Of a stretch of DNA of 64,000 nucleotides, positions 56,063-59,383 are shown piece by piece. The translations under genes and the position numbers were made by a program. The notes below the pieces were generated by a model. That model worked only from the letters and a program-made list of their open reading frames with translations. It was not told where the DNA came from and ran no database searches. The stretch is from Natrarchaeobius oligotrophus. Lineage in GTDB: Archaea; Halobacteriota; Halobacteria; Halobacteriales; Natrialbaceae. The stretch covers positions 124,001-188,000 of the forward strand of contig NZ_REFZ01000001.1 of assembly GCF_003841465.1 (NCBI RefSeq), in the 5' to 3' direction. Within the stretch, counting starts at the first letter, position 1. Every line of letters starts with the position of its first letter.

Positions 56063-56347
56063 CGATACTGTTTTCGGCGGAATCTCGTGCTGGCAGCGCG
56101 CTTCGGTTCGACTACGGCCGGAAACCGGTCTCGAACGGCTACGCTGTTCTCGGTCTCGAACGCCCCTTTCGACTCCCTCGAGACGCCGATGGCCCTCGTT
56201 CCCAGGCGGATCGTCGCTCGGTTCGTCGATGAGGGTATGGTTTTACGTGAATAGTTGGTGCTGTTCCTCCTGGGTCTTCCAGGGAGGTGTGGAGAAAATG
56301 AGAACGACGCTGAGATACCGAGTTCCGGATCGGATTCGTGTGATGGT

Positions 56348-57046
56348 ATGACTGTGATCGCTGAAATCACCGTGCCAGCGGATACGTTCGTCCTTGGTAA
56401 ACTATTCCACACTATTCCCGACGCGGTGGTCGAGTTCGAACCGATCGTACCGCTTCAAAGCGGCTACAAAACGAGTTTGCCCCTGGTGTCGGTTTCTCGT
56501 GCCGAACCGGACGAGGTCCGAACGGCGTTGCGCGACGAAGAGTGCGTCGAGGCCGTCGATGTGATCGCGTCTACCGAGAAGAAGACGGTATTCGAAATCG
56601 AGTGGAACGATGGCGACGGTGATGGGATCGTTCAACCACTGATCGATATCGGGGGCCGAGTTCTCAAAGCAACGGGTAGAGAAACGGAGTGGGAATTTCA
56701 CCTCCTTTTCGACTCGCATCTGTCACTGTCCGAATTCAATATGGCTGCGACCAGCAACGAAGTTCCGGTGACGTTGAATAAGGTATATAATTCGAACTTT
56801 CAAAACGAGAACACCGCTCCAGCAGTACGAAAAACCGTGCTCAAGCCCAGTTATAGAGAGACGCTTCTGTTGGCGTATCGAAGCGGGTACTACGACGCTC
56901 CGAGGAGTATACAGCTCGCCGAACTTGCGCAAAAAGAGAACGTTAGCGACAGCGCGCTCTCGAAACGGCTCCGCCGAGCCACTGCGGCTCTCATCGAACT
57001 CACGTTGCTCTCCGACGGAAGCGTGGCTGACACGACACGCAGGTAA
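56348..57046 (+). CDS. HTH-10 type transcription regulator (Bat-like)
   Basis: This 232-residue protein has an N-terminal GAF/Bat-like sensory half ('MTVIAEITVPADTFVLGKLFHTIPDAVVEFEPIVPL', 'VSRAEPDEVRTALRDEECVEAVDVIAS') and a C-terminal HTH-10 DNA-binding domain (PF04967): 'LKPSYRETLLLAYRSGYYDAPRSIQLAELAQKENVSDSALSKRLRRATAALIELTLL'. Such regulators are abundant in haloarchaea and act as activators, for example bacterio-opsin activator. It lies 285 nt after the Tat protein pair and might regulate it, though no operator is identified. ATG 56348 is chosen because the sensor strand starts there. Confidence 0.87.
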   Translation: MTVIAEITVPADTFVLGKLFHTIPDAVVEFEPIVPLQSGYKTSLPLVSVSRAEPDEVRTALRDEECVEAVDVIASTEKKTVFEIEWNDGDGDGIVQPLIDIGGRVLKATGRETEWEFHLLFDSHLSLSEFNMAATSNEVPVTLNKVYNSNFQNENTAPAVRKTVLKPSYRETLLLAYRSGYYDAPRSIQLAELAQKENVSDSALSKRLRRATAALIELTLLSDGSVADTTRR

Positions 57047-57564
57047 GGCGGGCCGTTCCCAGGAGTTCGATGACCTCCCGGGGTGGGTCCGTGAGAAAGA
57101 AGCCGCCCCCATCGTCGACGAATCCGGTTCATACTCCGTTTATCATACGCATTAGCGTAGCTCTTCATACCATCCATAGTGACAGTAAGATGGTATTTTG
57201 ACGTCGACTTACGAGGCGTAGAGAATTAGTGCAGCACGACGACTTCCTTTGTTGCCTCCGAAAGCGGCAATCGATCCGCTCACTATGACTGCGAATGGAA
57301 CGGGCAAACTCGCTCTCGCATTCGCGAACAGAGTGAGCGATTCACCGCCGGAGCGGGGTGAAACCCCGCGACGGCGGCCTTTTGGCATCAACGGGTTTTG
57401 CCGGGGGTTGAGGCTGGCGGCGCAGACGCCAGCCGATGCCCCCGGTAAAAGAGGTTGCTGTACTTACCGCCAGGTCAGTAGTCCGCGAATCGGGGAAAGT
57501 GCACCTACTCACCGGAAGCTCAACAGCGAGAACGCGAAAAAGTCGCCTGGTTAGGATAACCCGA
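57047..57564 (+). other. gene-free region with a structured element
   Basis: Nothing protein-like was found. The region contains the GCGAACA/GAGTGAGC word near 57323-57340, the strongly folded stretch 57345-57446, and a TG/CA-rich tail. Confidence 0.55.
57345..57446. repeat. highly folded two-hairpin element
   Basis: Hairpin 1 (57345-57377) is CCGCCG, ga, GCGGGGT, loop gaa, ACCCCGC, ga, CGGCGG: two perfect stems separated by a symmetric GA/GA pair. Hairpin 2 (57401-57445) pairs CCGGGGG with CCCCCGG outside and GGCTGGCG with CGCCAGCC inside around a 7-nt loop. Between them lies a short U-rich linker (ccttttggc and ggttttg). The strand of expression is unknown because both strands fold. It may be a noncoding RNA or the end of a decayed transposon. 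Confidence 0.6.
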
Positions 57565-57708
57565 TCAGTCCTCTCCGCCGTCGGCGATCGGCTTCTCGGC
57601 ACGGTAATCGTCGGGTTCCCCGCCGAAGTCCTCCGCGAGATCCTCCCGAACGTCTTCGCGAAGCTCTTCGATGTTCTCCCGCAGCTCGTCGATCTCGTCG
57701 TCGGTCAT
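57565..57708 (-). CDS. small acidic protein of the provirus-like block
   Basis: This 47-residue protein reads MTDDEIDELRENIEELREDV and continues REDLAEDFGGEPDD, with a heptad-like acidic/leucine helix (probably a coiled coil). Its ATG overlaps the stop of the next gene upstream (57705) by 4 nt, the hallmark of a compact viral or plasmid operon. No family is recognised. It is the last gene of the leftward series. Confidence 0.65.
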   Translation of the reverse strand: MTDDEIDELRENIEELREDVREDLAEDFGGEPDDYRAEKPIADGGED

Positions 57709-58082
57709 CGGTCGGGTCTGATCTCGTGCCATTCTTCGAATCTCCGTATGAAGTTTACGAGGTTGTTCGCTAAATGGTCTTCGGCGCGATCCAGTGCGTG
57801 CCTCGCGGGCATGGGCGGAGCGACGTACTCGGTTCGGTACTTCTCCCCGTCACGGTAGATATCGATGTGGACGCCTTCCTCGCTGACGTCGTGACCGAAC
57901 TCGCTTTTCACGTCGTGATCGTACCGAACGACCGTCGTCCAACCGCTCTCGAGTTCGTACTCCAACTGAACGACGAATCGGGTGATCTCGTCCTCGGTTC
58001 GGTTGTATCCCAATCGCTTCCGAGCACAGTGTGAGATCGGCGTCTCGTACTCCCGATCGTACTCTCGCAGTCCATCCGACAT
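57705..58082 (-). CDS. small haloviral/plasmid-like protein
   Basis: This 125-residue protein reads 'YETPISHCARKRLGYNRTEDEITRFVVQLEYELESGWTTVVRYDHD' and 'HIDIYRDGEKYRTEYVAPPMPARHALDRAEDHLANNLVNFIRRFEEWHEI'. The pattern (beta-rich core then a C-terminal helix) is typical of a protein family found on haloarchaeal proviruses and plasmids (DUF7718-like, from memory). ATG 58082 is the start; it is preceded by a short gap of 44 nt from the frameshifted gene. Its role is unknown. Confidence 0.7.
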   Translation of the reverse strand: MSDGLREYDREYETPISHCARKRLGYNRTEDEITRFVVQLEYELESGWTTVVRYDHDVKSEFGHDVSEEGVHIDIYRDGEKYRTEYVAPPMPARHALDRAEDHLANNLVNFIRRFEEWHEIRPDR

Positions 58083-59160: not shown

Positions 59161-59310
59161 TGGGCCGGCGCAGATGTCGAACAGATGCGAGACGGTCGCG
59201 CTCACTTCGTTCGCGCGCTGCGACTCGCGTGTTCGAATCTTTGCGGCTGCATTTCTGCCGCTCACGAACGCGACTCGCTTCGCTCGTCGGTTAGAATTCG
59301 CGGGCAGAAA
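59161..59310 (-). repeat. partial tRNA-Pro copy and inverted-repeat module
   Basis: Plus-strand 59161-59175 repeats the 3' end of tRNA-Pro (59311-59325) exactly, then carries a one-base insertion before the T-arm sequence continues (tcgaac). Between the two copies, the minus strand has GATTCGAAC (59231-59239), a hairpin with GAACGAAGTGAGC, and a CATTTCTGCC/GGCAGAAATG pair. The same modular order appears behind tRNA-Lys. Confidence 0.7.
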
Positions 59311-59383
59311 TGGGCCGGCGCAGATTCGAACTGCGGTTACGGCCACCCGAAGGCCGAAGGATACCAAGCTACCCCACCGGCCC
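59311..59383 (-). tRNA. tRNA-Pro (anticodon CGG)
   Basis: On the minus strand: acceptor GGGCCGG pairs with CCGGCCC, discriminator A. The D-arm holds GGGGTAGCTTGGTATCC, the anticodon stem is CGGCC/GGCCG with loop TTCGGGT (anticodon CGG, reading CCG), and the T-arm holds CGCAGTTCGAATCTGCG. No intron. CCA is not encoded. It is the attachment-type site for the DNA to its left. Confidence 0.95.

Follow-up and report, generated by a model that had tools for sequence, protein, structure and literature searches.

The window, i.e., the whole stretch of 64,000 nucleotides of the Natrarchaeobius oligotrophus genome that was analysed, contains a gap of approximately 520 nt between the ORFs 56255-57046 and 57565-57732 (ORF list). 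An earlier note had described a gene-free region of 500 nt here. The left ORF encodes a protein with HTH_10 and BAT domains (Pfam), while the right one is followed by a DUF7718 gene. Both hairpins that the note had placed in this gap, at 57345-57377 and 57401-57445, can be read in the sequence at these coordinates, the second one with its two nested stems. A 151 nt segment of the + strand folds with -87.3 kcal/mol, compared to -59.5 +/- 4.7 for shuffled sequences (z = -5.9), and none of the 200 shuffles reached so low a value.

All features are located on the + strand. The repeat unit (57291-57465, 170-175 bp) is delimited by its identity to further copies on contigs C11, C6, C5, and C34. Its weakest part is hairpin A (CTCGCTCT/AGAGTGAG, 57309-57337), which was read from the sequence; the minimum-energy fold pairs part of it elsewhere, and relatives exhibit a GC hairpin at the same place. 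Hairpin B (57345-57377) is seen in sequence and fold as CCGCCG-GA-GCGGGGT-gaa-ACCCCGC-GA-CGGCGG, with its tandem GA/GA at 57351-57352 and 57370-57371. It is followed by U-tract 1 (57380-57383), TTTT in this copy and T5-T7 in other families. Hairpin C, delineated by fold, alignment, and covariation, extends further than the note had seen and comprises 57386-57460: an outer helix CATCAAC/GTTGCTG (57386-57392/57454-57460), a TTTT/AAAA step in which U-tract 2 (57396-57399) pairs with an A-tract (57447-57450), a stem (57400-57407/57439-57446), a tandem GA (57410-57411/57435-57436), and an apical stem (57412-57419/57427-57434). The right inner end GCTGTACTTACCG (57458-57470) is common to many copies, and the stretch from 57458 onwards is repeated in a genome of the same genus with 95% identity over 37 nt. 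Beside the element, the 3' end of a gene remains at 57503-57554, cut at 57503; the gene is intact in L205-L208, L030, and L031 and, judged by eye, looks like a tyrosine recombinase.

A covariance scan of the window with Rfam finds SRP RNA and tRNAs elsewhere and none at the element; over the element region, the best E-value is 0.21 and all matches lie under the gathering cut-off. The word GAACAGAGTGAGCG (57326-57339), likened in the note to the tRNA arrays, has two relatives with 2 mismatches in the window. These 3 matches compare to 0.59 expected, and the resemblance is thus rated as weak. ARAGORN predicts a minus-strand tRNA-Pro at 59311-59383 which is absent from the Rfam matches. One 15-bp word in this tRNA recurs 150 bp away (59161-59175), possibly a pseudogene or an attachment remnant.

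Dispersed copies and their carriers

A 201-nt query against the own genome yielded seven matches, five of which are real copies: the one in the window (C1) and those on C11, C6, C5, and C34. They are located at unrelated sites with unrelated outer flanks and are 93-100% identical. The C11 copy is 100% identical over 57291-57465, the C6 copy, which begins at a contig end, 99% over 170 nt (57294-57463), the C5 copy 93% over 57294-57460, and the C34 copy, cut by a contig end, 100% over 127 nt. Such a pattern is characteristic of a repeat that has dispersed recently. The same genome also carries tandem gene-end elements, five at C24:3684-4244 (L341-L345) and two at C4:40392-40602 (L337, L338), with a spacing of about 124 bp and 151 bp, respectively.

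Some copies are flanked by an inverted-repeat pair, CAGTAG...CTACTG, here called X ends. The retrieved loci hold 32 such pairs, and 20 of these have identical 4-nt flanks, mostly NTAN, where 2.2 are expected with shuffled partners. The cargo of the X cassettes is either the structured core, as read in L020, L027, L138, L141, L169, L177, and L251, or single genes. Passenger-gene domains are response regulator, GNAT, cupin, and phosphodiesterase, and three of seven tested genes are without a Pfam match; no autonomous transposase was found among the cassettes read. The window copy has the inner parts of the X ends, lacks the outer ends, and shows no visible 4-bp target duplication. Its flanks gave separate partial matches in three same-genus genomes and no clean empty site, nor does L138 provide one because it sits at a rearrangement. 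In the window's family, copies are scattered over unrelated sites, and some of them are carried in cassettes that have target duplications.

Several observations were made alongside. The X cassettes form a haloarchaeal transposon-like family with asymmetric inverted ends, which occurs in L020, L138, L141, L169-L173, L177-L182, L185, L199, L200, L234-L241, and L248, and a 110-bp empty form of the CAGTAG...CTACTG cassette in genome G069. The right end of a cassette and the flank to its right are the same in two genomes at L229:13944-14490 and L230:8022-8568, but the cargo next to them differs. A joint sequence of 65-70 bp, CTGTACTTACCG...TCAGTAGTCCGC...ACACTACACGTGCGAA, lies beside cargo units in L041, L203, L204, and in the window (57458-57494); in L203, two direct copies of it are separated by 1.7 kb. 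A palindromic repeat of 86-87 bp (ACTATAGTAGCCACTGAAAGTCA...) is found at many sites per genome, sometimes in tandem, in a single genus that linked records indicate to be Natrinema (L138:2796-2882; L224, L225, L226).

Covarying architecture and spread among haloarchaea

In the consensus of 18 copies (alignment A2), 17 of 39 base pairs change on both sides, with a score of 0.278 versus at most 0.074 in slid controls. In an alignment of 52 distant copies (A5), this holds for 37 of 39 pairs, 91.7% of the cells pair, and the score is 0.458 versus 0.045-0.068, but A5 was fitted to the covariance model and is biased towards it. The 18-copy fold starts with hairpin B and its tandem GA/GA, continues with CCTTTT, and ends in hairpin C, which comprises from the outside inwards the CATCAAC/GTTGCTG helix, an internal loop, the TTTT/AAAA step, a GC stem, a GA/GA loop, and the apical stem. 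The apical part is inverted or replaced in some copies.

The wider architecture was derived from 52 copies, 47 of them outside the window's family (Natrialbaceae). These copies begin with a GC hairpin A and (G)GTTCACC. Hairpin B and CCTTTTTT come next, then an 8-nt linker, TTTTT(T), a stem, and AAAAA(A), and the tail at the end forms pairs with the linker. Linker and tail vary in step: CATCGACG goes with GGTCG, CATCAACG with GGTTG, CATCGAAG with GTTCG, and further covarying sets are CGCCCACG/GGTGG and AGTCCAGG/CCTGG. One outer pair occurs in all four Watson-Crick types and is paired in 68 of 70 cases. The architecture is conserved, strongly covarying, and widespread in the order. Two tertiary motifs were considered and dismissed: a kink-turn, as the GA/GA loops read as symmetric, and a U.A-U triple helix, suggested by two U-tracts and an A-tract, for which the covarying outer helix leaves no linker. 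In one or two families, strings like CGAGCCGTCCAACCCGGGGAAGGG precede several of the copies (L268, L276, L283, L288).

A slightly longer query than the one above matched in 32 of 100 genomes, the own genome included. At E-values up to 0.01, the covariance model R1, built from the alignment of 18 copies, matched at least 95 of 125 genomes in the family (at most 28 candidates scored per genome); across the order, with E-values up to 1e-4, it matched at least 168 of 293 (at most 11 candidates scored per genome). Covariation and copies elsewhere, whose absence the earlier note had named among the points that would speak against the element, are both abundant. A search for an exact pattern that ignores structure, CTTTTT-N7-9-TTTTT-N25-55-AAAAAG, succeeded in 231 of 293 genomes, with a maximum of 43 matches in one genome (G346), while the same pattern read backwards, our control, gave 11 matches in 9 genomes. 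The own genome has nine matches and none in the control; these include the tandem arrays of five and two. The window copy escapes this pattern because its tracts are T4, and it is the sole window match to a relaxed version. In retrieved loci, which were preselected for the element, a similar expression found 67 matches versus 4 in reversed and 0 in shuffled sequence. One pattern scan reported 15 stretches, located in Natrinema, Natronorubrum, Natrialba, Halolamina, and a further, unclassified genome of the Natrialbaceae; carriers known by name are Natrinema, Natronorubrum, Natrialba, Natrononativus, Halolamina, and Halobellus. Rfam gave no matches on seven distant loci. The element is undescribed in Rfam and in the available parts of the literature searched (including PMC3119063, PMC7237163, PMC8716108, and PMC12306157), and we limit the statement to these sources.

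Folding strand and position at gene ends

The counts of G-U and A-C pairs bear on which strand folds. In hairpin C of 117 copies, 191 G-U compare to 22 A-C under an alignment rule blind to this difference, and counts over unique arms are 81 versus 12 and 57 versus 7. A further count gave 102 versus 11 for hairpin C and no strand bias for hairpin B (7 versus 6). The pair-scoring model with which copies were found favours G-U to some degree. Copies chosen by a regular expression without any model show 56 G-U versus 1 A-C in hairpin C over many positions, although they are still drawn from loci fetched with the pair-scoring model. Among unique copies, the tandem 5'GA/5'GA is present in 91 of 106 hairpins C and 68 of 106 hairpins B; internal loops of 2x2 or more are GA/GA in 141 of 159 cases and AG/AG in 2. 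The G-U bias together with the tandem GA speaks for a folded + strand, either RNA or single-stranded DNA. A stable RNA, which the note had considered, is consistent with this bias and the tandem G.A pairs as far as a folded RNA is concerned; a promoter-like box upstream of the element, in contrast, was found in 0 of 33 copies of the wider set.

The bias falls on the strand antisense to the adjoining gene. The wider set comprises 56 copies. A right-hand gene on the opposite strand is present in 35 of them, and for 30 of the 35 the stop codon and the model end are offset by -7 to +1 nt. A count that needs no gene caller looked for stops preceded by 80 or more open codons and placed one inside the 28-nt end window in 43 of 56 copies versus 188 of 2120 random points; a few of the 43 are, by eye, long non-coding frames. 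Left-hand genes show neither such a register nor an enrichment for orientation towards the element (22 of 52). Pfam was applied to 20 proteins chosen from the 43, one of which was without match, and named, among others, the PolD large subunit, CDC48 (two), CetZ, DnaJ, a chaperonin, PhoU, DUF5789, an IF-2 type factor, an EF-G type factor, and an enoyl-CoA hydratase family protein with a MenB-like C-terminus. As seen from C-terminal sequences, DnaJ ends at the element in different families (L277, L280, L298), and so does DUF5789 (L258, L261, L265). In a set of 80 mostly Natrialbaceae copies (A3), by comparison, a stop is that near in only 3 of 43 cases: the copies of the window's family have lost the gene-end position.

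A probable mobile offshoot of a gene-end structure

The window hairpins are best read as a mobile derivative of a structure that is conserved at haloarchaeal gene ends, rather than as what is left of a TnpB element. From the structure, its position, and its spread, we infer that the element probably marks where transcription stops. With moderate confidence, we regard the window hairpins as a mobilised copy of a structured gene-end element that would bound transcription in both directions. Polymerases entering from outside on the + strand would meet the GC hairpins and then two U-tracts about 8 nt apart; the dimeric termination nuclease aCPSF1 could bind these tracts through its KH domains. Incoming transcription would then stop before running antisense into the gene, and the gene's own strand would present a U-tract after the stop codon. 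Read-through RNA of the + strand would fold into hairpin C, whose role, as a guess, may be protection or recognition of this RNA. The window element, with its gene partner lost and short U4 tracts, may be kept by its mobility or by insulating neighbours. U-tracts terminate transcription in haloarchaea (PMC7237163), and aCPSF1 is a dimer whose KH domains bind U-tracts (PMC8716108).

Several facts count against the boundary reading. A simple hairpin-then-U terminator needs no hairpin C, since it comes after the U-tracts on the + strand. The median 3' UTR of Haloferax volcanii, 97 nt (PMC7237163), exceeds the stop-to-U-tract distance of the element. The G-U bias is on the antisense strand, the promoter-like box is missing, hairpin B is unbiased, and left genes are not enriched; the window copy has U4 only, and a simple terminator scan on it returned no match. 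More tentatively, and with some doubt, we propose a haloarchaea-wide RNA family outside Rfam, with tandem GA, a U/A-step hairpin, and two U-tracts at a fixed 8-nt spacing for dimeric aCPSF1, which would form the 3' boundary of core genes and have been captured by transposable cassettes as a mobile boundary element. Archaeal termination has so far been described mainly in terms of U-tracts without hairpins. If the proposal is true, a large archaeal group would use an RNA-structure-based gene-end signal, a composite element whose structure is conserved in most genomes of the order searched and which is locked to the stops of DnaJ, thermosome, CDC48, PolD, and translation-factor genes. The mobile copies show how such a signal can be relocated within a genome.

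It is unlikely that the element is purely selfish, i.e., a small MITE- or PATE-like mobile element whose hairpins are transposition substrates or ballast without host function. Near-identical dispersed copies with unrelated flanks would fit such an element, as would the 32 inverted end pairs with their excess of identical flanks, some of which hold the core. Copies in other families, however, abut the stop codons of conserved genes, with the same gene in several families, and this positional conservation at orthologous genes goes along with covariation in the wider set. Moreover, the core is found within differing outer ends and without any, and the window copy has no matching 4-bp duplication. 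Extragenic palindromes in many copies, at gene ends and in tandem arrays (five on C24, two on C4), could also be double-stranded sites bound by a protein, such as a REP/BIME-like gyrase, nucleoid, or repair site with an incidental RNA fold. This is quite improbable given the excess of G-U over A-C in hairpin C and the strand-specific GA/GA, which speak for folding of a single strand.

An independent small RNA gene, in turn, would account for the conserved fold, the non-canonical pairs, and the + strand bias, and is nevertheless very improbable: the box count of 0 of 33 speaks against it, and the end of the element is fixed by the stop codon of its neighbour. As to the transposon end suggested in the note, its mobility is borne out by relatives in cassettes with inverted ends and 4-bp target duplications; the IS605/TnpB kind is not. 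Subterminal palindromes are typical of IS605/TnpB elements (PMC3119063), and the genome has 13 TnpB-like genes, but a Y1 transposase is absent from it, TnpB is beside no copy, and TnpB loci show no match to the element, so that an end or guide RNA of such an element is scarcely credible. No support was found for the replication or attachment structure that the note had also named. A phage origin was discarded with no match in the phage collection. Integron attC sites carry the boxes RYYYAAC/GTTRRRY; the stop-codon register suggested such a site, and these boxes are absent.

Among known systems, bacterial REP/BIME elements are short palindromes of 20-40 bp associated with a RAYT (Y1) transposase. 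Our element resembles them as an extragenic palindrome with many copies, some in tandem, that may be mobile. It differs in the lack of Y1 in its own genome, in a far larger conserved structure of about 125-175 bp, and in its stop-codon register, and membership was rejected. Haloquadratum PATEs and small mobile repeats are likewise short, palindromic, dispersed, and without transposase (PMC3119063). In the available description, however, PATEs carry palindromes near their termini, as IS605 does, and do not duplicate their target, whereas the core of the element is not linked to IS605 and 4-bp duplications are seen in some carriers; with neither a Y1 transposase nor a TnpB partner with matching ends, the element was not assigned to the PATE/IS605 type. 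Hairpin B followed by a U-tract recalls a bacterial intrinsic terminator, but the element has a second U-tract and a long hairpin thereafter. A tract of at least 4-5 downstream of a gene, as in archaeal U-tract terminators, is present, with T5-T7 in other families and only T4 in the window. A further likeness is to the termination sites of H. volcanii, where a T5C stretch terminates 95% and a hairpin 59%, and hairpins lie upstream of 503 sites (PMC7237163). Both share T5-6 stretches and GC hairpins at haloarchaeal gene ends. Compared by the available text description, the H. volcanii sites are single hairpins and T stretches, whereas the element is a composite with a covarying outer helix, tandem GA, and a U/A step.
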